DNA of 64,000 nt from Fimbriimonadales bacterium (GCA_025998675.1 AP024673.1:523221-587220); one strand, 5' to 3'; positions 29,393 through 41,581 are shown, counted from the first letter of the stretch. The notes: generated from the sequence alone by a model not told the origin. Program-made: numbers and translations.

Positions 29393-29752
29393 ATGCGTAT
29401 CCTGGTGGTGGACGACGAACCGATGGTGCGGTTCCTGCTCACGCGCTTCCTGGAAGAGGAAGGGCACGCGGTGGATGAGGCTGTAGACGGCATCGACGCG
29501 CTGGAACGCCTTAAGCAGCGCGAATATGACCTGCTCATCAGTGATGTGCATATGCCGCGCATGTGCGGGATTGACCTGGTGCGTGCGATTCGCCGCCTTG
29601 GGATACGCTTACCGCTGATAGTGATGGACAGTTATCCCGAGCTGTTCTCGGAGAGCGAAGTCGGCGCGGAGGCGTTCGCCCTGCTCGCGAAGCCCTTTGA
29701 CCTCAGCGAGGTACGCCGCGTTCTCCGTGAACTGCAACTACAACCTGTATGA
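29393..29752 (+). CDS. Single-domain response regulator (receiver only)
   Basis: A 119-residue CheY-like receiver with no output domain. Visible are the acidic pair VVDDEP, the phosphoacceptor Asp in LLISDVHMP, and the conserved Lys in LLAKPFD. The conserved Thr/Ser at the end of beta-4 is unusual: the sequence reads PLIVMDSY, with Asp where Thr normally stands. It is first in an operon with a TonB-dependent receptor (10-base gap), a substrate-binding protein and a histidine kinase, which is the likely phosphodonor. With no DNA-binding domain, it must act through protein contacts or as a phosphate sink. Confidence 0.9.
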   Translation: MRILVVDDEPMVRFLLTRFLEEEGHAVDEAVDGIDALERLKQREYDLLISDVHMPRMCGIDLVRAIRRLGIRLPLIVMDSYPELFSESEVGAEAFALLAKPFDLSEVRRVLRELQLQPV

Positions 29753-29762
29753 GGTGATTCCT

Positions 29763-31661
29763 ATGCGAATCGTTTGGATTCTGGCAGGCATAGCGATTGG
29801 CGCTGGACTGGGGTGGGCGCAGCGCACTTCGGAGACGGGTGAGTGGCTGTTCGCCGACCCGCAGGAGGTGGTCAAGACCGCCACGCGCACGGAACGCCCG
29901 ATAGCGGAGTCGTTCACCACTGTGCGCGTACTGACCCGTAAAGAGATTGAACTCAGCGGCGCGCAGACCATTCAGGAACTGCTGGAGCGCATGGTCGCCG
30001 ACTTTGAGGGGCAGGAGTCGTCCCAGCACCGCTTTTTGAGCATGCGCGGCGCCTACAGCGCGTCCGAGTTCAATGAACGGATGCTCTTTCTGCTGGATGG
30101 ACAACCGCTGAACGACCCCGTACTGGGCAACTTCCCGGCGATGAGCCTCAGCACGCACGATGTGGAGCGTGTGGAGGTGGCGTTCGGACCGGGTTCGGCG
30201 ATGTACGGACCGAATGCGTTTGCAGGGGTGGTGAATATCATCACCCAGCAGGAGTCGACGGCGCGTCCCTCGCTCTGGAACGGCTACACGGGGCGCGGCG
30301 GCTACAACGCCTCGTTGCGCTGGACGACCGAGCCGACCAGCCCCACGCGCGTGAGCTTGCAAAGCTCCTTCTGGCGCGATCCGGGCAGCGACCGGGCGTG
30401 GAACAACGACACGAATGTACGCACGGCGCGCCTGTTTGCCTCAGGCGGCAGTCCAGAACGCGGGCAGTGGCGGTTCAACTATCTCTACTCGGATCTGGAG
30501 CGCGGGCAGGTCGGTATGCGTTACTTCACCTATCCGACGCCGACCGACCGCAGCCACTGGCGCACGCACTACTGGCAACTGGAGTATCAGCGACAGTTCG
30601 GTAAAGCAACTCAAACCGCGCGCGTGTACGGATTGAACGGCTCGCTGGTCTTCAACAAGGTGCAGACCGTGCCGCCGCTAACGGGCAGCGAGCCGCGCAC
30701 GCGCATGCCGTTTTCGCAGAGCATGCTCGCCGCTGAGACCTACTGGCAGTGGGCGCTCCCAACTGTGCAGGTACTGGCAGGTGCGGACTATCGTGTAATG
30801 CGCGTGAGCAGTCAAAACCATCTGGGGGGCGCGCACAACGCCCAGAACTTCGCGCTCTACGCACAGGCAGAATGGCAACTGGGACGCTTTCAGCCGATTC
30901 TGGGCGCGCGCTACGACGACCATTCCATTTATGGCAGCCAGCTCAGCCCGCGCGCAGGCTTTACTTACATCGCCGACTCGCAGAACCGATTCCGCGCCTC
31001 CGTCGGGCGCGCGTTCCGCGCCCCCAGCTTCACTGAAATGTTCCTGCAGAATTACTATGTCTGGATGCCAGCAGGCGACAATCCCGTACCGTTGAGCATC
31101 GAGGGCAAGGCGGATTTGCGCCCTGAAGTCACGGTCAGCACGGAGCTGGGCTATCGCTACCTGCACCCGCGCTGGCAGCTGGATGTGTCGTACTTCAGCA
31201 ATCAACTGGACGATGTGGTTTCGGTGTTCACCAAAGATCCCAACCAGCCCCTGCTGCGTCAGTACACCAATCTCTACAGTTTTCGCGTTTGGGGTTGGAC
31301 AGGCGATGCGACCATCAAGCTCGCTCCCGACTGGACGCTCAGCGCGGGCTACATGCATGTGCGCTACACAGGCGGCGTTGAGGAGGACTATAAGCCTGCA
31401 CGGGATCGGGTGGTCATCAGGCTGGCGCACTGGCGCGAGCGCGGGTTGAGCGGGCAGCTAACCTTCAGTTATCCCGCCGTTGGACAGGGGTACTCGGACG
31501 CGCACGCCTGGAACACCTACCTGAACCTCGTCTACCGAATGGATGAACGCAGCCGTTGGAACCTGCGCGTCGACAACCTGTTCAATGTGCGCACGGAGAT
31601 GGCGCGCTGGGTACCAGGCGGGCGACGCAGCGTGTGGTTCACCTATCAACGCGACTGGTGA
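29763..31661 (+). CDS. TonB-dependent outer-membrane receptor
   Basis: A 632-residue receptor. A signal peptide (MRIVWILAGIAIGAGLGWAQ) precedes the plug domain with RVLTRKEIELSGAQTIQELL, MLFLLDGQPLNDPVLGN, VERVEVAFGPGSAMYGPNAFAGVVNIIT. The remainder is a 22-strand barrel ending in a terminal aromatic residue (TYQRDW). It imports a ligand across the outer membrane using TonB energy. The size and the plug motif resemble BtuB or CirA, but the ligand is unknown. GAGGTG precedes the ATG at 29763. It sits between a lone receiver and an ABC-type binding protein plus kinase. Confidence 0.92.
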   Translation: MRIVWILAGIAIGAGLGWAQRTSETGEWLFADPQEVVKTATRTERPIAESFTTVRVLTRKEIELSGAQTIQELLERMVADFEGQESSQHRFLSMRGAYSASEFNERMLFLLDGQPLNDPVLGNFPAMSLSTHDVERVEVAFGPGSAMYGPNAFAGVVNIITQQESTARPSLWNGYTGRGGYNASLRWTTEPTSPTRVSLQSSFWRDPGSDRAWNNDTNVRTARLFASGGSPERGQWRFNYLYSDLERGQVGMRYFTYPTPTDRSHWRTHYWQLEYQRQFGKATQTARVYGLNGSLVFNKVQTVPPLTGSEPRTRMPFSQSMLAAETYWQWALPTVQVLAGADYRVMRVSSQNHLGGAHNAQNFALYAQAEWQLGRFQPILGARYDDHSIYGSQLSPRAGFTYIADSQNRFRASVGRAFRAPSFTEMFLQNYYVWMPAGDNPVPLSIEGKADLRPEVTVSTELGYRYLHPRWQLDVSYFSNQLDDVVSVFTKDPNQPLLRQYTNLYSFRVWGWTGDATIKLAPDWTLSAGYMHVRYTGGVEEDYKPARDRVVIRLAHWRERGLSGQLTFSYPAVGQGYSDAHAWNTYLNLVYRMDERSRWNLRVDNLFNVRTEMARWVPGGRRSVWFTYQRDW

Positions 31662-31665
31662 GAGC

Positions 31666-32631
31666 GTGCAGAAGCTGGGAGCCGTCTTCGCCGTGTGGGG
31701 AGTCGTGTGCGCGCTGCTGCAGGGGCAGGGCGTCGATGTCGCCATTCTGCAGAGCGGCGAAGGCGGCTTCTATGCGGAAGCCGTGCAGCGGTTCCACACA
31801 ACACTGGAGCAGCAGGGCTACGCCGTTCAGACGCTCGTCTTCGTTCTGAAGGGTGACCGCTCGGACGCCGATTTGCCCCGTCGAATCCTTGAAAAGCGTC
31901 CCAAGATTATCCTGGCAGTCGGCACAAACGCCGTCAAAGCGATTCGCGCCCATTACGAAAAGGTTCCCCCGCAACAACAGGCGCCCGTTGTGTTTCTGCA
32001 GGTGATTGACCCGATTGGCGAGGGGTTGATTAAGAGTGTGGAACGCAGCGACACGCGGTTTGCGGGCGTCGCGCTGACGGTGCGTCCTCAGCGGCAACTG
32101 AGTACCTTGCTCGATATCGCGCCCGAAACGAAGCGGGTGGGGGTTATCTACAACCCCAGAGACAGCGTCTCGCAACGCCTGATGGAGCAGGCGCGTGAGG
32201 ACGCCTCCAAACTGGGCGTTGCGCTGCAAGAGGCGCTTCTCGAGCAGGCGTCGCAGATTGGCGACGCCCTGAAATCGCTGGAGGGCAAGGTAGACGCGCT
32301 GTGGCTGATTCCCGACCCTGTGTGCGCCGCGCCGGAGCCGTCCCAGCGTGTACTGGAATTCGCGGAACGGCACAAACTGCCCGTGCTGGCGTTCGCGGGG
32401 GCGTTTGTGCAACGCGGCGCGCTGGTCGCCACAGGCGTTGACATGGCGGAACAGGGCGCCCTCGCAGCGGAGCAGGTCATCCGCATCTTGGAAGGCGAGG
32501 CGCCCGAATCGCTGCCGTTGCTGACCCCAAGACGCACCCTGACCTTTTACAACCTCAAGACCGCGCGCGCGCTCAACATCACAATCCCGGATATGCTGTT
32601 GAATCTTGCGGCAAAGGTGTATGAACCATGA
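31666..32631 (+). CDS. Periplasmic ABC-type substrate-binding protein (ABC_sub_bind family)
   Basis: A 321-residue exported binding protein. The GTG at 31666 is chosen because it follows the receptor stop by four bases and gives a good signal peptide (MQKLGAVFAVWGVVCALLQG). The body shows the family pattern: a first lobe (VDVAILQSGEGGFYAEAVQRFH, KIILAVGTNAVKAI, PVVFLQVIDPIGEGL) and a second lobe (KRVGVIYNPRDSVSQRLMEQ, ALWLIPDPVC, LPVLAFAGAFVQRGALVATGVDMAEQG). Such proteins bind amino acids or sugars for ABC importers, but no permease or ATPase is adjacent. The stop overlaps the kinase start by four bases, so it may act as a ligand-presenting partner of the kinase. Confidence 0.85.
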   Translation: MQKLGAVFAVWGVVCALLQGQGVDVAILQSGEGGFYAEAVQRFHTTLEQQGYAVQTLVFVLKGDRSDADLPRRILEKRPKIILAVGTNAVKAIRAHYEKVPPQQQAPVVFLQVIDPIGEGLIKSVERSDTRFAGVALTVRPQRQLSTLLDIAPETKRVGVIYNPRDSVSQRLMEQAREDASKLGVALQEALLEQASQIGDALKSLEGKVDALWLIPDPVCAAPEPSQRVLEFAERHKLPVLAFAGAFVQRGALVATGVDMAEQGALAAEQVIRILEGEAPESLPLLTPRRTLTFYNLKTARALNITIPDMLLNLAAKVYEP

Positions 32632-35165
32632 AACGGCTGGGGCTTCGTGAGCGGCTGCTGTTGTTTTACGCGCTGATGGCGTTGACGCCCGTCGCGCTCT
32701 CAGGGACGCTCCTCTACTTCTACCTCAATCGTCAGGTCGGCGCCTCAGCGCAGGCGTTCCAGCAAGGTGTGCAAAACGATTTGCAACGCTCCCAGCGAGC
32801 CATCCGCGCAAGCGTGAGCGAGACGCTGCGCCGTTCGCAGCAGCAGGTGCAGACGCAAATCACACAGCACATGGACGACTCGCGCACGCAGATGCTGCAA
32901 CAACAAAAACGCCTGCTTCAGGATACCGTCGGCACGCTCCAGCAAACGACCGAGAGCGCGTTGCAGCAGACGGAGCGCAACACCATTCAAAACCTGAATC
33001 GCACGCTCAATCAGGTGGATACGCAAGTGCAATCCATTCAGGAGCAGTCGCTCGCCTCGCTGCAGGAGACCACCGCCAGCGCCGCCCGCGAGGTGCTTCA
33101 GCGACTGGTTGCCAGCCATTTGGCGCAACTGAGCGCCCAGGTCTCGCGTCAGGTGGAAAGTCTCCTGCGCAACTACACGGCGCAGCTGAATCTGATTGCC
33201 CAGCAGCCTGCCATTCAGCAGGGCAGTGCGCAGGAGAGCCGCTGGATTCTGCAGGCGCTGCAGGATCGCGAGCCAGCGTATCAGTACCTGGCGTTGCTGG
33301 ATAACACAGGCGCGCCTGTGGTGGAATCAGGCGAGGCGCCGGAAGATGCAGCACAGGCGCAGCAAGCTATTCGCACGCTATGGACGCAGGTGGAGCAGAA
33401 CCGCGAGATTGTGCTGGGCGAGCCGAGCCTCTACAAAGTGGAAGGCAAGAATCAATCGCTCGTGCCGGTGATGGCGCCCGTGAGTCAGATGGGGCAGCAG
33501 TTTCGGGGCGCCATCTTCGCATGGGTCAGCCTTGACGAAGTGAGTGCGCTCACACGCACCTTCCGCGTAGGCGAACGCGGGATTGCGATGCTGGTGCAGC
33601 GTCAGGGGATTGTCATGGCGCACCCGGACAGCCGCCAAATCGGCGCGGGGACGCCCTATGCGCGCCTGCTTGAGAATGCGCCGTTGCAGGCGCAGTTCGC
33701 CGTCTACCCCACTCCCGAAGGCGACCAGCTCATCGCGGCTGCGCCTGTGCGTCGCCTGCAGGCGTGGCTACTGGTCGTTCAGCCGACCGAGGAAGCCTTC
33801 CGACTGGCGACCGAGCTGCAAGCGACGGTGCAGCAGAACTTTGCGCGGCAGCGGGAAGCGACCACGCGCGCCCTGCGCCGCACGCGCGACCAGGCGCAGG
33901 CGCGTATCACCGCGCAGGTTCAGGCAGAACAACAGCACACGCGTCAGCAGATACGCCTGTCGGAGGCGCGCGCGACCCAGCAGTCCGCGCAGATGCTCTC
34001 GCGCCTTGCCGACTCCCAACAGCAAACTCTTGTGCGTGCAATTGCCGTGTCCCTAAGTGCGGTTCAAACGAATCTCGAGAAAAACCTGACGCTCCAGCTG
34101 AATCGGGCGTTTGAAGAGACCAGTCAGCAGCTCCGCGCCAGCGCGGAAGACCTGCGCGTGAACATCGACTCCCGTCTGCGCGATGCGTTTATGGTCGCCT
34201 TGCTCTCTGTGCTGGCGTTCCTGTTATTTGGGGCGGCTTTCCTGGATCGTGCGCTGGTGCGTCCGCTGCGTGTGCTGGTGCGCGTCACGCACGAAATCGC
34301 CGCAGGCGATCTCACCAAGCGCGTCGTGCTACCGAAACGCGGCTGTCCCGACCTGGATGACCTCGCCGACTCGTTCAATCACATGGTGGACGCCGTGCAG
34401 CGGAGTCAGGAAGAACTCAAGCAGGCGGAGGCGCAGTTGATTCAGTCCAGCAAGCTTGCCTCGCTGGGCACGCTGGCGTCGGGTGTGGCGCACGAGCTGA
34501 ATCAGCCGCTGGCGATTATCCGCGCAATCGCCCAGCAGAACCTCGAGACCATCGACAGCACACCAGCGCCGCAACTGATTCCGATGCTGCGCGAAGACCT
34601 GCAGATTATCCACCGTCAGACCGTGCGCATGAGCCAGATTATTCAGCACCTGCGCGCCTTCGCACGCAAGCCGCGCGAGGAATTCGAGCCCGTGAACCTG
34701 AACGAGATTGCCCAGAACGCGCTCATCTTGCTGCGCGAGCAACTCCGACAGCGCGGGATTACCCTTGTTGAAGAGTACGCGCCGAACCTGCCCCCGGTGC
34801 TGGGCGAGGCGAACTCGCTGGAGCAAATCGTGATCAACCTGCTCACGAACGCGCGCGACGCGCTGGAGAACCTGCCCGACGGACAAATTGCGATCGAGAC
34901 GCGCACCTACGACGACGGCAAGCGCGTCTACGCCGAGCTGTGCGTGCGCGACAATGGGCCGGGCGTCCCCGACGACATCCGTCAGCAGATTTTTGACCCC
35001 TTTTTCACCACCAAAGACCCCAACAAGGGTACCGGGCTGGGGCTTGCCATCTCACTGGAGATTGCGCAAAAACACAACGGCTTCCTCCTGCTGGGCGAGA
35101 CGGGGCGCGGAGCGGCGTTTCTCTTGCGCATTCCCGTCGCCGAATCGCGTCAACAGGCAGCTTAG
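32628..35165 (+). CDS. Sensor histidine kinase with long periplasmic coiled coils around a Cache-like domain
   Basis: An 845-residue membrane kinase. TM1 lies near residues 10-34, then an alpha-helical Gln-rich coiled coil to about 179. A Cache-like sensor domain covers 180-390 (YQYLALLDNTGAPVVESG, GIAMLVQRQGIVMAHPD). A second coiled coil runs 391-519 and TM2 520-542. HAMP follows (VRPLRVLVRVTHEIAAGDLTKR). The HisKA domain has phosphoacceptor His622 in GVAHELNQPL, and the HATPase has INLLTNARDAL, DNGPGVPD and GTGLGLAIS. The two helical arms, each 130-150 residues, would hold the sensor far from the inner membrane. The operon supplies a binding protein, a receptor and a receiver. Confidence 0.92.
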   Translation: MKRLGLRERLLLFYALMALTPVALSGTLLYFYLNRQVGASAQAFQQGVQNDLQRSQRAIRASVSETLRRSQQQVQTQITQHMDDSRTQMLQQQKRLLQDTVGTLQQTTESALQQTERNTIQNLNRTLNQVDTQVQSIQEQSLASLQETTASAAREVLQRLVASHLAQLSAQVSRQVESLLRNYTAQLNLIAQQPAIQQGSAQESRWILQALQDREPAYQYLALLDNTGAPVVESGEAPEDAAQAQQAIRTLWTQVEQNREIVLGEPSLYKVEGKNQSLVPVMAPVSQMGQQFRGAIFAWVSLDEVSALTRTFRVGERGIAMLVQRQGIVMAHPDSRQIGAGTPYARLLENAPLQAQFAVYPTPEGDQLIAAAPVRRLQAWLLVVQPTEEAFRLATELQATVQQNFARQREATTRALRRTRDQAQARITAQVQAEQQHTRQQIRLSEARATQQSAQMLSRLADSQQQTLVRAIAVSLSAVQTNLEKNLTLQLNRAFEETSQQLRASAEDLRVNIDSRLRDAFMVALLSVLAFLLFGAAFLDRALVRPLRVLVRVTHEIAAGDLTKRVVLPKRGCPDLDDLADSFNHMVDAVQRSQEELKQAEAQLIQSSKLASLGTLASGVAHELNQPLAIIRAIAQQNLETIDSTPAPQLIPMLREDLQIIHRQTVRMSQIIQHLRAFARKPREEFEPVNLNEIAQNALILLREQLRQRGITLVEEYAPNLPPVLGEANSLEQIVINLLTNARDALENLPDGQIAIETRTYDDGKRVYAELCVRDNGPGVPDDIRQQIFDPFFTTKDPNKGTGLGLAISLEIAQKHNGFLLLGETGRGAAFLLRIPVAESRQQAA

Positions 35166-35232: not shown

Positions 35233-36096
35233 ATGATGGAACCGAGAGTGCATTGTCCCGAATGGGAGGAGAAGCTGAGCCTTTATGTCGATGGGTTGTT
35301 GAACCCGTTCGATGAGAACGCGGTGGAGGCGCATATTGCCCGCTGTGGCGCGTGCCGTGCGACGGTTGAGCTGTGGCGCGCGGTGGGTCAATCGGTGCGT
35401 CGGTTGCCGCGTGAGTTGCCGCCGCCCGACCTGCGTGAGGCGATTCTGGCGTCCACAACGCGCCGTCGGTCGAGAGCGCGTCGCTGGGTTTTCGGCTGGC
35501 GCACGCTTGCGCCGGCGCTTGGGCTTGCAGTAGGGCTGGCGTGGTGGACGCTCCCGCGCCCTGTGAATGACCCCACGCCGACCGTCGCAACTGTCCCGCT
35601 GCCGCGCGTGGAGACGACCCTTCCGCTGGCGCCCGCGCCTGTGAGCAATGAAACGGAGGCGTCGCCTCAGACGCCGCTGGTGATTGTGCTGCAGTCGTCG
35701 CCTGCGTTCCGCACCGCGTCGCCTGCGCCGCGCTGGACGCCCAACACGCGCCTCAGCCCCGCGCCCAACCCGCAGGAGAGCGCGCCGCCCGTCATCGTGT
35801 GGAACGACTCCGCCCCGCGCTTCACGCCGACCGGCGCAACGCGCCCGACGATTATCACGGAAGTCGCCGAGCCGACGGAGGACTCATTAAACGCGCCGCT
35901 TCCTATCGCCTCGCTAACGAACCCGGGACCGAGCGAACCTGCGACCGCCGTCGCCACCCGCGACCTGACCGACTGGCTGGTGCGCCTGAATCAGCAACTC
36001 CGTGAGGAAGACCGACAACGCATCTCTGGCGCAGCGAAGCGCGAACCCAACCGAGGCGGCTTTTTCGTGCCGATTGTGAGTGTAGACCTGAAGTAA
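35233..36096 (+). CDS. Anti-sigma-factor-like membrane protein (zf-HC2)
   Basis: A 287-residue protein. The N-terminal 60 residues form a zf-HC2 zinc-binding domain, with Cys in RVHCPEWEEKLSLYVDG and the H-x3-C-x2-C motif HIARCGAC. A transmembrane helix lies near 95-115 (TLAPALGLAVGLAWWTL). The rest, about 170 residues, is Pro/Thr/Ala-rich and probably periplasmic. Such proteins normally hold an ECF sigma factor at the membrane, but no sigma gene lies beside it, so the partner is elsewhere or the role differs. A large envelope protein gene follows on the same strand. Confidence 0.8.
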   Translation: MMEPRVHCPEWEEKLSLYVDGLLNPFDENAVEAHIARCGACRATVELWRAVGQSVRRLPRELPPPDLREAILASTTRRRSRARRWVFGWRTLAPALGLAVGLAWWTLPRPVNDPTPTVATVPLPRVETTLPLAPAPVSNETEASPQTPLVIVLQSSPAFRTASPAPRWTPNTRLSPAPNPQESAPPVIVWNDSAPRFTPTGATRPTIITEVAEPTEDSLNAPLPIASLTNPGPSEPATAVATRDLTDWLVRLNQQLREEDRQRISGAAKREPNRGGFFVPIVSVDLK

Positions 36097-36156
36097 GCGG
36101 CAGGGCGTCGCGCCGTCGAAGCCGACGAGAACGCGCCAGCCGTTGTGGAGCGCACT

Positions 36157-39100
36157 GTGAGACGGATCGCGCTAATCGGGCTGATAGGGCTTGCGCTGAA
36201 CGCCTCAGCGCAGGAGAACGCGGTGCCTCTGCTGGACTTGAACGGCGCGGCGAAACCGTCTACGCCCACTGCCTCTGGCGTGATTGGGGAATCGACCGCC
36301 GATGTCATCCCTGGCAACGGCACGCGCGGTGGCTACACTACCCGCTATGCGCCCATCGTCCCGTATTCTGAATCCGTTTATGTAGACGGCAAGCGGCTCC
36401 AGCGCGATCTCGATTACTGGATTGACTACGCTTCGGGGGCGATTGCCTTCGCACAGCCTGTGCGCCGAGTCTCCACCGTGCAGGTCTACTACCGCTACGA
36501 CCCGAAAGGCAAGCGTGAGGGCGTGGTGGGCGCGTTGCCCATCCTCTCGCTTTCGTTCGGGCAGGGCGGCAGTCTGAACGCGCTTTACATGCCCGGCGTC
36601 ACGGAGACCGCGCGCGACGGAACCGCCTACCGCCTGAGTGTGTATGGCATGCAGAACGCGCTGCGCTTCGGCGGCGGCAGCCTGCAGGGGTACTTCTTCG
36701 TCGGCTCGCGCGAAGCCATCAACGCCTACGCCGCGCCCAACACGCGCGACCCGCAGAAGCCCACCATCGCGCCTTCCGAAACCGCGCAGTTTATCGTGCA
36801 GCAACTGCAGATGGACACGGGCGCGCTGCAAATCCGCGCCAACTATCAGGACATCGGCAAGGGCTTCTCCGCGCAGAAGATGCTCGGCATGCAGAGCGGG
36901 CTGGATGCGAACCAGCTGGCGGCGTGGGAGCGTGAGCGGGGCATCAGGCGCTACGACTACGCGATTGGACTGAAGCTCGGCGGCGCGTCGCTCCAGCAGA
37001 CCCAGCTGCGCATTCAGGACGACAAGGGCGCAATTGAGCAACAGGGCTGGCAGTTCGCAAGCAACTGGCTGAACCTCAACTGGACGCGACGCGAATCCGC
37101 CGCCGAGTTCCAGCGCTACAAAGACCTCGGCGACGCGCAGAAGGGCGACTGGCAGCGCGAGCGCGGACTCGTGCGCGAACAACTCGCTTCCAGCCTGCAA
37201 TTCGCGCCGAACAGCACGCTCAAGTATGACCAGCTGCTGCTCAAGCAGGGCGCGGCGCGCATCGAGCGCGATGTCTACGCGCTGGAGATGCCCTGGTTGA
37301 AGGCGTCGCGCATGCAGCAGCGGGTCGGCGAGGGGTTCACACGCTTTGGCGACCTCTCGGAGGGCGACAAAGGGCAGCTCGCGCGCGAAGTGGGCATGCA
37401 ACGCGACCAGACCCAGCTGGAAATCACGCAGCCGAATTTCAAACTCGCCGCCGCCGAGCAGGAAGTACGCTCGCCCACCGGCGCGCTGGAGCGGGAAAGC
37501 CTCAAGATAGAGACCGCGCATGTGGTGGTGGAGCATACGCACCGCGCCGTCTCGCCTGAGTTTGGCAGGTTGCCCCATCTTGCCCCGCAGGAGCATCAGC
37601 AACTGGTGGAGGAGGTGCGCCAGTTCCACGACACGGCGAACGCGGTTCCGTTCGACCCCAATCATGACCTGCCGCTGCTGATGCGCGAGCAGGGGTTGGA
37701 GCGCACGCTTCAGCGCGTGGAGGTTAAACCTGCGAAAGACCTCTCGCTGCAGATGCGTCGCTATGAGACGGCGAACCGCGCGGGCGAAGGCGACCTGAAA
37801 GGCGTCCAGTGGCAGCTGCGCACGCCGACCCTGCAACTGCGCCTGCACGAGCGCGCCGTTGCGCCGACTTTCAATCGCCTGCGCGACCTGACCCGCATCG
37901 AGCAGGCGCTGTTCCACAACGAGCAGGGCATCCACCGCTTCGACTGGGACGCCGCCATCACCACCCGACAGTTCGGGCTGGCGGTCTCACAGATGCGCGT
38001 GCGTGAGATTGGCGCCGGCTTGCATCGGCTGAGCGCGCGTCTGATCCATCCCCTCGTGGAGCTGCACTATCACCAGCGGCAGGTAGACGCCGACTTCGCG
38101 CGGGCGCACGACCTCGCCGACCCGGAGCGCGATTTCTTCGCCCAGCTGCGCGGCTACCGTCAACACGACTGGACCGCCAAACTGCGTCCCGCCCAGAACC
38201 TGCAGCTGGAGCTGTTCGGTTTTCAGGCGAGCAACCCGCTGGAAAGTATCGCCAACCGCCGCCAGCGCTATCGCGTTGTGTGGCAGCCCTTCAAAAATCT
38301 CACCTTCGGACGCCATCAGGACGCCTACGAATCGGACAAAATCGTGGAGCGCCTCTATCAGGATGAGTACGACCGCAGCGACCTGCAGTACCAGCTGGGC
38401 TGGGGGCAGCTGAACGCCTATCAAGAGCGTCGGCGCATCGGCGGCACGCTGGCGAACCCCCTCTATCAGGACTCCGAGTTCTGGCGCTTTCAATCGAGCG
38501 CGGTGCGCAACTTGAACCTCGCGCTGGAGGAGCGGCGCACGACGGCGACGGGCGCGCCCAGTGAGCGCTATCGGCACTATCAGACCGCCTACACGCTCAA
38601 CCCGCGCACGAAACTGCAACTGGCGCATATGGAAGCCAACCGCGAGGGCGCGCCCGACGAGAGCGCACAACAAATCGGGCTGGAGTACGAACTCAAGCCG
38701 GGCGCGAAGCTCACCTTCTCCGAGACCCGTCAGGCGAAAGAGGGCGCAAACGGCAACCGCGTGCTGTCGGCGGGGCTGACCCAGACCGCCTTCGGCGTGC
38801 TGAGCATCGGCGGCGTGTATCAGGAGCAGCGCATCGACCGCACCAACACCCGCGCCCAGAGCCAGGTGGTCGTCCAGAGCGCGAAGCCGTTCAGCTTTCT
38901 GGGGCTGCAGGAGTTCCAGTTCGATTTCCGCTACGGCGCGCTGGCGGATCGCGGGATGTGGCATCAGGAGAACAAGCACTTCACGGCGCAAGCCGTCGCA
39001 CTGCGCCACAAACTCGCGGGCGGCTATGTCGGGCTGTATGTGCCGGGGCAGGGGCGCGCTGTGGATCGCTACTATCAGCTCGAATCGCCGCCCCATCCGC

Positions 39101-39633
39101 TGCTCACCTACCGCCTGCTGTATAAGACGCGCACCTATCAGGACGGCAGGCTGTTCCTGGTGCGCCACTACAACTTCGCCTACAAGCTGGACGGGCGGCT
39201 GACGCTCACGCACGAGTTCCAGACCCACCCTGAACAGGCGAACGCGCAGGTGGTGCTGGGCTCCGTGCTGCAGCCGACGGGCTTCTCGGCGTGGGGGCTG
39301 GAGTGGCGCTGGACGCCCCGAATCATGCTGCGCGGCGACTACCGTATCGAGTGGAACGACCAGCAGAACCGCCGCACGCGGCGCGGCGGGCTGACCCTCA
39401 GCGCGAACCAGAGCGACGGGCTGCAATACAGCTTCGGCTACCGCGTCGACTCCGAGCGGTTCGGCGCGCGCAACGCGATTGCGCACACCTTCTTCCTCTC
39501 CACCGAGCGCAAGCTGGACTCGGAGAACTTCCTGATGTTCGGCTTCCAGTGGACGCATTACGAGCGTCGCCCCGACGCGAGCATCCCGCGCGACCAGCAA
39601 CGCCTCGTGCTGGAATGGCGCAAGCCGTTTTGA
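36157..39633 (+). CDS. Large exported envelope protein with a spaced repeat, probably outer membrane
   Basis: A 1,158-residue exported protein. The GTG at 36157 has GGAG six bases upstream and gives the signal peptide MRRIALIGLIGLALNASAQ; a longer frame starts at 36145. The start of the mature chain has ESVYVDGKRLQRDLDYWIDY, a surface-protein motif. Alternating polar/aromatic strands and an end in RLVLEWRKPF, with a terminal Phe, suggest a beta barrel. Between residues 325 and 660 a motif of the form F-x-R-x2-(D/H)-L followed by charged residues recurs at least five times (FQRYKDL, FTRFGDL, FGRLPHL, FNRLRDL, FARAHDL). No known family was recognised. Confidence 0.7.
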   Translation: MRRIALIGLIGLALNASAQENAVPLLDLNGAAKPSTPTASGVIGESTADVIPGNGTRGGYTTRYAPIVPYSESVYVDGKRLQRDLDYWIDYASGAIAFAQPVRRVSTVQVYYRYDPKGKREGVVGALPILSLSFGQGGSLNALYMPGVTETARDGTAYRLSVYGMQNALRFGGGSLQGYFFVGSREAINAYAAPNTRDPQKPTIAPSETAQFIVQQLQMDTGALQIRANYQDIGKGFSAQKMLGMQSGLDANQLAAWERERGIRRYDYAIGLKLGGASLQQTQLRIQDDKGAIEQQGWQFASNWLNLNWTRRESAAEFQRYKDLGDAQKGDWQRERGLVREQLASSLQFAPNSTLKYDQLLLKQGAARIERDVYALEMPWLKASRMQQRVGEGFTRFGDLSEGDKGQLAREVGMQRDQTQLEITQPNFKLAAAEQEVRSPTGALERESLKIETAHVVVEHTHRAVSPEFGRLPHLAPQEHQQLVEEVRQFHDTANAVPFDPNHDLPLLMREQGLERTLQRVEVKPAKDLSLQMRRYETANRAGEGDLKGVQWQLRTPTLQLRLHERAVAPTFNRLRDLTRIEQALFHNEQGIHRFDWDAAITTRQFGLAVSQMRVREIGAGLHRLSARLIHPLVELHYHQRQVDADFARAHDLADPERDFFAQLRGYRQHDWTAKLRPAQNLQLELFGFQASNPLESIANRRQRYRVVWQPFKNLTFGRHQDAYESDKIVERLYQDEYDRSDLQYQLGWGQLNAYQERRRIGGTLANPLYQDSEFWRFQSSAVRNLNLALEERRTTATGAPSERYRHYQTAYTLNPRTKLQLAHMEANREGAPDESAQQIGLEYELKPGAKLTFSETRQAKEGANGNRVLSAGLTQTAFGVLSIGGVYQEQRIDRTNTRAQSQVVVQSAKPFSFLGLQEFQFDFRYGALADRGMWHQENKHFTAQAVALRHKLAGGYVGLYVPGQGRAVDRYYQLESPPHPLLTYRLLYKTRTYQDGRLFLVRHYNFAYKLDGRLTLTHEFQTHPEQANAQVVLGSVLQPTGFSAWGLEWRWTPRIMLRGDYRIEWNDQQNRRTRRGGLTLSANQSDGLQYSFGYRVDSERFGARNAIAHTFFLSTERKLDSENFLMFGFQWTHYERRPDASIPRDQQRLVLEWRKPF

Positions 39634-39714: not shown

Positions 39715-40593
39715 ATGTTCAAGTTGATACAGGGCGATTGCTTAGACGCACTGGACGCTATCCAATCGCAGGGCATTCAGGTAGCCCTGACCTTCTTGGA
39801 CCCACCCTTCAATCAGGGAAAAGAGTACGCTTATTTTGACGATGACCAGCCAGAACCTCTCTACTGGGAGTGGCTGAGGCAGGTATGCCGCAAGGTCTAT
39901 GCGTGTACCGAAGCGGGCGGCGCGTTGTACCTGATGCACCGCGAGAAAAACGCCGAATGGGTACTGCGAACCGTGCGCGAGACGGGCTGGACCCTGCAGA
40001 ATCTGATTATCTGGCTCAAAAAGACCTCCGCTGTACCCAACACACAGCGGTTCGGCAAACAGTACCAGATTATCGCATTCGCAACTAAAGGGACGCGCCC
40101 ACGCTGTTTCCATCGGCTGCGGATTGACCTGCCACCCGAACCCAACTACAAGTTTCCCCGCGCCGACGGCGTCTTCGTGACGGACTGCTGGAGCGACATT
40201 CGTGAGCTGACCTCAGGCTACTTCGCAGGCGATGAGGCGATACGGGATGCCTGCGGCGAGCGCGTTCATAAACAACAGTCGCCAGTCGCGCTTCTCCTGC
40301 GCATTCTGCTCTCGTCTACGAAACCCAACGACTGGGTGCTGGATCCGTTTGCAGGCACGGGGACAACCGCCGTTGTAGCGGAGCAGTTGGGACGCCACTG
40401 CATCGCTATTGAAGTAGACCCCGAATACACTCGTCTTATCCAGGATCGCCTGCGCCAGCGGCGCGCCGCAGACTCCATACTCCGCTGGCGCCCTTACTAC
40501 CGCTTCACGCCTGAACTGGAGGCTATCTGGCCTTCGGAAACAAGTGAACGGTGGCAACACGACTCTCAACCCGCTCTGTTCAGTGAGGGGTGA
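39715..40593 (+). CDS. DNA (N4/N6) adenine or cytosine methyltransferase of a type II RM system
   Basis: A 292-residue beta-class amino-methyltransferase. The catalytic motif IV is DPPFNQG near residue 30, and the AdoMet motif I is DPFAGTGTT near residue 220, so the order IV then I marks the beta class. It transfers a methyl from AdoMet to an exocyclic amino group of a base in a defined DNA site. It is followed with a five-base gap by a PD-(D/E)XK protein that is the likely matching endonuclease. The recognition sequence cannot be told. Codon choice is less GC-biased than in neighbours, suggesting transfer. Confidence 0.9.
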   Translation: MFKLIQGDCLDALDAIQSQGIQVALTFLDPPFNQGKEYAYFDDDQPEPLYWEWLRQVCRKVYACTEAGGALYLMHREKNAEWVLRTVRETGWTLQNLIIWLKKTSAVPNTQRFGKQYQIIAFATKGTRPRCFHRLRIDLPPEPNYKFPRADGVFVTDCWSDIRELTSGYFAGDEAIRDACGERVHKQQSPVALLLRILLSSTKPNDWVLDPFAGTGTTAVVAEQLGRHCIAIEVDPEYTRLIQDRLRQRRAADSILRWRPYYRFTPELEAIWPSETSERWQHDSQPALFSEG

Positions 40594-40597
40594 TACT

Positions 40598-41581
40598 TTG
40601 GCAATATTCAGGCTTTATTTTGATATATTGCACTACCTGCATAATCATCCAGACAAGATGCATCGGGCGTCGCTTGAGGAGATTGCGGGACAGCACACCT
40701 GCTACGCGTACTACGGCTCCCGAAAGACGCTGAAAACCGAAGTGGAGGCGCGTGCTGCCTTTCTCGCGCAACAGGGTGAAATTGCTGAGGAAGTGATTCA
40801 AAAATGGTATAATAGAAAGGATTGGGACAAAGACTCTGGAGATTTTCCCGATTTTGTGCTGGTGTATGAGAACACTGGCGCTATTGGCGACGGCGGTATT
40901 ATTGAACTAAAAGACAGCGGAGAGACCTCTATAGCGTCTTTCAACTCTACAATTCCAGAAAAGCGCAAGAAGCTGAGTGAACTGTCGCCTTCCGTGCAGA
41001 CGGCAGTTCGCTGGTATCAGGAGCGAATAAATATTCCGACTCCTGACGACGATGTTCGTGATTGCTTCTATATCGTGCGCACGAAAAAAGGTGATAAGAA
41101 CAGTGTAAGGCTTTCCATAGTAGATGGCTCTTTCTTTTCGACGATTCCGACTCAGAAATTGCTTGAAGATCTATGGCGGCAGGTTTTGCAAGAGGCGTCT
41201 TTGAAGCCGAATACACAGTGCTACAAAAAAGCGTTGAAATGCCTGTCGAGTCTCACACGCGACGAGATTGCTAAAGTACGCCGTGTGGAAGGCGCGTCCA
41301 TCAAGCCGCGTTTACGGCTTATGGCAGAGGTCGAGCAGGAGGGCAATCCTCATACCTACACTGAAATAGGCAGTCGCACTGTGAATCTGATATTCCAGTA
41401 CTCAGAGACAGGCGCTGATGGAATAGCAGAGCCACTGGTTGGTATGTTTGTGCAAGACGGCGTAGTCGCTAAAGTAATCAAGCCTGACGAACTGGAAATA
41501 GGAGGGTTCCCTGTCAAATTGCGCTATTTACAGCACAAGCGCAACGGTCGCTACACGGTGATTCAAGCGGAGAATCGCTGA
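40598..41581 (+). CDS. Putative type II restriction endonuclease
   Basis: A 327-residue protein beside the methyltransferase. The TTG at 40598 is chosen since it follows AGGGG by eight bases and comes just after the methyltransferase stop; the frame is open further upstream. A PD-(D/E)XK core is visible: PDFVLVY, then 13 residues on, IIELKDS, with Asp and the ELK pair as metal ligands and catalytic Lys. No other family was recognised. The base composition is clearly AT-richer than the flanks. Its end overlaps the convergent CHAD-like gene by 19 bases. The function is inferred from position and motif. Confidence 0.7.
   Translation: MAIFRLYFDILHYLHNHPDKMHRASLEEIAGQHTCYAYYGSRKTLKTEVEARAAFLAQQGEIAEEVIQKWYNRKDWDKDSGDFPDFVLVYENTGAIGDGGIIELKDSGETSIASFNSTIPEKRKKLSELSPSVQTAVRWYQERINIPTPDDDVRDCFYIVRTKKGDKNSVRLSIVDGSFFSTIPTQKLLEDLWRQVLQEASLKPNTQCYKKALKCLSSLTRDEIAKVRRVEGASIKPRLRLMAEVEQEGNPHTYTEIGSRTVNLIFQYSETGADGIAEPLVGMFVQDGVVAKVIKPDELEIGGFPVKLRYLQHKRNGRYTVIQAENR

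Follow-up and report, generated by a model that had tools for sequence, protein, structure and literature searches.

We found that the last gene of a four-gene operon in the 64,000-nt stretch of DNA analyzed here (the window), which comes from the complete 2.99 Mb genome of a hot-spring bacterium of the Armatimonadota, encodes a histidine kinase whose dCache sensor domain is carried on two long helical arms, the length of which is constant across orthologs far beyond chance. The first-pass annotation of this DNA had described a kinase sensor held on a coiled-coil stalk, and the stalk is confirmed by our analysis. The kinase is, in our assessment, probably an envelope-spanning dCache sensor with a head height of ~19 nm, served by the outer-membrane receptor and the binding protein encoded beside it. 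The operon comprises the following genes:

29393-29752, plus strand: stand-alone receiver of 119 aa (Response_reg), the operon’s first gene and a conserved neighbor of the receptor
29763-31661, plus strand: TonB-type outer-membrane receptor, plug and barrel (Pfam)
31666-32631, plus strand: ABC_sub_bind (PF04392) periplasmic binding protein (Pfam, Sec signal)
32628-35165, plus strand: stalked dCache histidine kinase, 845 aa (Pfam)

The receptor and binding-protein genes in this series are separated by a gap of 4 bases, and the kinase start codon overlaps the stop codon of the binding-protein gene. The receptor, binding-protein and kinase genes adjoin in every genome of the family in which the contig is long enough, and the receiver gene sits directly upstream of the receptor gene in all nine family loci long enough to show it. 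At 119 aa, the receiver (29393-29752) falls below a 150-aa ORF cut-off. All close relatives of the kinase occur in metagenome-assembled genomes of Fimbriimonadales/Armatimonadota, several with names suggestive of hot environments; the broad genome scan behind this result used Cache peptide patterns, the reach of which is limited to the close family. Downstream of the operon, a gene for a zf-HC2 protein (35233-36096) precedes one encoding a 1162-aa protein with no Pfam match (36145-39633), which is unusually conserved for an unassigned protein (84-91% identical in relatives in which the kinase is at 56-78%). Farther along the window (39715-41581), an N6_N4_Mtase DNA methyltransferase gene overlaps an unassigned gene of 345 aa, possibly forming a restriction-modification pair.

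Within the kinase, two transmembrane helices and the two arms enclose the sensor domain, followed by HAMP and the catalytic domains; the interval annotated at first pass (32628-34260) corresponds to residues 1-544 of the 845:

32655-32726, plus strand: transmembrane helix 1 (TM1), residues 10-33, approximate (hydropathy)
32727-33095, plus strand: arm 1 of the stalk, residues 34-156 (AlphaFold2 helix, 15/4 periodicity, invariant length)
33096-33779, plus strand: dCache_1 sensor domain, residues 157-384 (Pfam, Foldseek)
33801-34175, plus strand: arm 2 of the stalk, residues 392-516 (AlphaFold2 helix, 15/4 periodicity, anchor distance)
34176-34247, plus strand: transmembrane helix 2 (TM2), residues 517-540, approximate (hydropathy)
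34248-34400, plus strand: HAMP, residues 541-591 (Pfam)
34464-34670, plus strand: HisKA dimerization/phospho-acceptor domain (Pfam)
34806-35141, plus strand: HATPase_c catalytic domain with N, G1 and G2 boxes (Pfam, motifs)

The dCache_1 match between the two transmembrane helices scored 73 bits against a curated cut-off of 45, and the predicted fold of this domain matches solved dCache domains, the best being Mlp24 (6iop; Foldseek). The catalytic motifs are intact, and His622, located in the sequence GVAHELNQP, is the predicted phospho-acceptor by its position in the motif. By every feature of its sequence that we tested, the kinase thus belongs to the dCache histidine kinases. Inspection of the Cache by eye gave no obvious match to the PctA-type amino-acid ligand motif.

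The two arms flanking the Cache are rich in glutamine (23.6% of arm 1 and 16.9% of arm 2) and contain no proline, in agreement with the Gln-rich arms described at first pass. Lengths of ~145 and ~128 residues had been given for them; the arms are indeed long, but count 123 residues between TM1 and the Pfam start of dCache (34-156) and 132 between its Pfam end and TM2 (385-516), differing from the earlier figures only by where the Cache boundary is drawn (arm 1 measures 158 aa when the Cache’s own first helix is included). At 1.5 Angstrom per residue, straight helices of these lengths would extend ~18.4 and ~19.8 nm, matching the ~20 nm per arm proposed earlier for a straight stalk, and TM1 and the far end of the first helix (residue 191) would lie ~23.7 nm apart, stalk and Cache together reaching ~24 nm. 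An AlphaFold2 monomer model, built on an alignment of 15 sequences, predicts two uninterrupted, hairpin-free helices spanning residues 6-191 (186 residues) and 392-558 (167 residues), with pLDDT of ~90 in the Cache and ~71-84 over the greater part of each arm. The model of L057, an ortholog only 24% identical, likewise contains helices at 10-195 and 394-565, at an arm pLDDT of mostly 50-65. The pTM of the two monomers is below 0.5 (0.48 and 0.46), too low for these models to fix how the arms lie relative to each other.

Hydrophobic residues recur in both arms with a period of 3.74-3.76 residues (spectral peaks at 3.72-3.77), or ~3.75 (15/4), in the kinase itself as well as in the family average, and in the kinase the signal of both arms lies far above that of shuffled sequences. 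The spectral peaks of the family set and of the intermediate set were reached by none of 1000 shuffled sequences, and the peak was significant also in the four most distant orthologs (p <= 0.002 versus shuffles); the periodicity of arm 2 of the kinase is weaker if alanine is counted as hydrophobic (p = 0.03). The 15/4 phase runs uninterrupted along each arm. A 15/4 repeat marks the right-handed (pentadecad) type of coiled coil, and it is the sequence signature of this type that the arms carry. Canonical heptad (3.5) and hendecad (3.667) coiled coils were ruled out, since in both arms the power at 3.5 was below 2 and there was little power at 3.667.

We compared arm length across 20 full-length orthologs spanning three GTDB families of Armatimonadota. 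The anchor residues P21 and Q193, which bracket arm 1, are 172 residues apart in all 20, and the anchors P386 and P546 around arm 2 are 160 residues apart in 19 of the 20 (158 in the remaining one, L040). Arm 1 shows not a single indel over 190 sequence pairs, at pairwise identities down to 4.9%. Indels per 100 residues amount to 0.24 in arm 2, 1.1 in the Cache and 1.2 in the kinase part, those of arm 2 stemming from L040 and from an alignment shift in L041 that is caused by adding the distant relative L099 (aligned without it, L041 shows none). The Cache between the arms spans 161-196 residues across orthologs, a spread of 35 residues. Proline is almost absent from the arms of the orthologs, and glycines are few. 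The earlier remark that so long a stalk is unusual holds up among the dCache receptors of the same class, in which the corresponding linkers measure 2-53 and -9 to 40 aa; in the one further dCache_1 protein that the source genome encodes, they are 10 and 13 long. A length locked at identities of about 5%, beside other linkers that are short, indicates that the stalk is a selected feature rather than a product of drift. Retention of length while the sequence diverges is a known and frequent mark of coiled-coil spacers (PMC5082667), and the constant length of the arms thus identifies the stalk as a spacer or rod, whereas an extension as far as the outer membrane does not follow from it alone.

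The receptor encoded in the operon holds the only PF00593 match in the source genome. Among the 18 genomes of the family, 15 have exactly one such match and three have none, two of these three having a kinase contig that ends near the operon. The receptor lies on the kinase’s contig in 13 genomes, and the contigs are broken in two others (G102 and G105). Profile searches for TonB_C (PF03544) and ExbD (PF02472) detected neither in any of the 18 family genomes, and absence of the Ton motor, judged by these two profiles, is provisional. TonB_C is present in 16 of 113 genomes of the class, all 16 belonging to one family (f3) of the same order, and in five of six genomes tested elsewhere in the phylum. 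The TonB-box position of the family’s receptors is degenerate, reading EVVKTA, ETIQAA, QITTAA or QESSTA, and the box reads MIVTA in relatives from family f11, whose genomes have TonB_C. This pattern of profile matches and motifs agrees with loss of the motor and retention of the receptor. A Pfam scan of the receptor up to E = 1 detected no STN domain, and FecA-type signaling by it was ruled out on this ground. Just ahead of the TonB-box position, the N-terminus of the mature receptor carries a conserved tail, QRTSETAEWLFADPQ, a candidate docking site; a related TS..TELLLA form of the tail is found in other families of Armatimonadota.

Like the receptor, the binding protein is the only one of its kind in the source genome, with no other PF04392 match. 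It has a Sec signal and is predicted to be soluble, anchoring as a lipoprotein being ruled out because no lipobox cysteine is conserved across orthologs. Neither a permease nor an ATPase gene of an ABC transporter adjoins it, the genes on either side being those of the receptor and the kinase. In contrast, both types of gene are adjacent to PF04392 relatives on two plasmids. The four plasmid records from outside Armatimonadota that were examined for the same operon contained only ordinary transporter loci or unrelated ones.

Other gene contexts of the stalked kinase point to its possible output partners. In families f11 and f13 of Armatimonadota, the genes for the binding protein and the stalked kinase precede one for a receiver-GGDEF-HD protein, after which come TonB-type receptor genes. 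The gene after the stalked kinase in two distant orthologous loci (L086, 9336-10916; L090, 9900-11456) encodes such a receiver-GGDEF-HD protein (HD-GYP-like), and the output there is therefore probably cyclic di-GMP. In G108 and G109, early-branching genera of the kinase’s own family that carry the most divergent orthologs, a receiver-HisKA-HATPase gene lies directly downstream of the stalked kinase. Orthologs of this gene are present in 18 of 18 family genomes, that of the source genome at 1,992,088-1,993,281, unlinked to the operon. Judging by this conserved gene company, the 119-aa receiver and the 398-aa receiver-kinase protein are both likely phosphotransfer partners. The same 15/4 stalk period was also seen in L099 (G211:C277, 3452-6565, minus strand), a PAS-containing kinase of 1038 aa whose arms are longer (182 and 175 residues between anchors, versus 172 and 160). 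No binding-protein or TonB-type receptor match was found in the 13 kb examined around L099, so that the stalk alone does not imply a TonB receptor as partner.

Signaling by an envelope-spanning sensor of this kind would most likely proceed as follows. The stalk would be a straight, right-handed (15/4) coiled coil, in which two protomers most likely form a four-helix bundle, each contributing one rising and one descending helix, and a length fixed by selection would place the head toward the peptidoglycan or outer-membrane side of the periplasm. At the outer membrane, the receptor would capture a ligand, which the ABC_sub_bind protein would bind and then carry or report; the Cache would in turn bind the loaded binding protein or the receptor, the route via the binding protein being the most likely. 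The resulting change in the Cache may travel along the stalk as a shift or twist and, via TM2 and HAMP, arrive at the kinase, which would phosphorylate the 119-aa receiver, the unlinked receiver-kinase protein encoded at 1.99 Mb, or both. Co-encoding of the kinase with the sole receptor of its class, together with undetected TonB_C and ExbD, suggests a signaling line across the whole envelope, and the kinase head may contact the outer membrane or the receptor, as was also proposed at first pass. Several observations weigh against this reading: the receptor lacks an STN domain, a soluble binding protein is encoded between receptor and kinase and could act at any height in the periplasm, and L099 has such a stalk with no receptor or binding-protein gene in the surrounding 13 kb. 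The spacing between inner and outer membrane in E. coli was reported as 30-32 nm under one condition (PMC8824477), which exceeds the reach of ~24 nm, and contact would thus require either a periplasm narrower than this or a bridging partner, e.g., the binding protein. In its most specific form, namely that a motorless TonB-type receptor has turned into a signaling receptor, read by a periplasm-spanning kinase on a length-locked stalk either directly or via the binding protein, so that information would cross the envelope independently of TonB, this proposal is doubtful and we put it forward tentatively.

A possible reading, on the unlikely side, is that the stalk is a transmission rod only, with the Cache at mid-periplasm or at the peptidoglycan, the receptor merely co-transcribed and the ligand diffusing with the binding protein. 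The length would then be fixed because four helices can transmit a twist or shift to HAMP only if they keep register, and the single period and single length shared by both arms, the general tendency of coiled coils to keep their length (PMC5082667), the soluble, Sec-exported binding protein and the stalk of L099 without a receptor neighbor are all compatible with it. However, ordinary dCache receptors in the same genomes manage with linkers of a few residues, so that a 19-nm rod needs a reason, and the receptor was retained as the sole copy of its class beside the kinase. It is improbable that the stalk senses the envelope itself, responding to intermembrane distance or load in an Rcs-like manner with the receptor as its anchor rather than as a ligand receptor. 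The stalk is fixed at a length comparable to that of a periplasm, the TonB_C and ExbD that would energize the receptor were not detected, and Rcs signaling in E. coli depends on periplasm size (PMC5736177); yet the kinase has a domain of ligand-binding type, the binding protein is conserved in the operon, and no peptidoglycan-binding domain was detected in the kinase by Pfam. Helical bundles close to the membrane are a common element of bacterial receptors and a monomer model cannot settle the structure of a dimer, but arms folded back into a compact bundle that holds the Cache near the inner membrane, the outcome that the first-pass annotation had set against its own proposal, are very improbable and were rejected, given the long single helices in the models of both the kinase and the distant ortholog L057, the unbroken 15/4 phase with its near absence of proline and scarcity of glycine, and the scarcity of indels, which hairpin loops would permit.

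The usual view of inner-membrane kinases is that they sample the periplasm near their own membrane. If the envelope-spanning reading is true, a fixed 19-nm stalk and a lone TonB-type receptor, in genomes in which no Ton motor was detected, would directly connect the outer membrane with the cytoplasm. The system would also make it possible to test whether periplasm width and stalk length correspond, and what role TonB-type receptors have in cells without TonB.

A partial literature search found no published description of such a stalked kinase, and several known systems share some of its elements. With the dCache_1 kinases and chemoreceptors (PF02743; Mlp24 6iop, PctA/B, mmHK1S-Z3 3lib) it has in common the order TM1-dCache-TM2-HAMP-kinase and the fold, and it differs from them in two extra arms of ~123 and 132 residues, where the others of the class have only the short linkers given above. 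In LuxPQ and TorT-TorS, which are binding-protein-linked kinases, as in the present operon, the binding-protein gene lies directly upstream of the kinase gene with no ABC permease or ATPase beside it; here, the operon additionally encodes an outer-membrane receptor and the sensor head is long-stalked, the binding protein being a putative partner of the kinase. In the FecA-FecR-FecI system, an outer-membrane TonB-type receptor is likewise encoded with an inner-membrane signaling protein, whereas here a kinase replaces the anti-sigma factor, the receptor is devoid of an STN domain, and neither TonB_C nor ExbD was detected. Cross-periplasm signaling that depends on the length of a protein is exemplified by RcsF/IgaA and Lpp of E. 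coli (PMC5736177), where it is a flexibly linked outer-membrane lipoprotein that reaches across, while here the kinase’s own coiled coil would do so. Finally, long periplasmic coiled-coil rods are found in deep-branching diderms as SlpA/Omp-alpha, the SlpA of Deinococcus measuring ~28 nm (PMC9388160, PMC5082667). Unlike the stalked kinase, these are structural tethers with an SLH domain rather than sensors, and SlpA is trimeric and built of heptads and beta-layers, in contrast to the 15/4 period that runs through both arms of the kinase.
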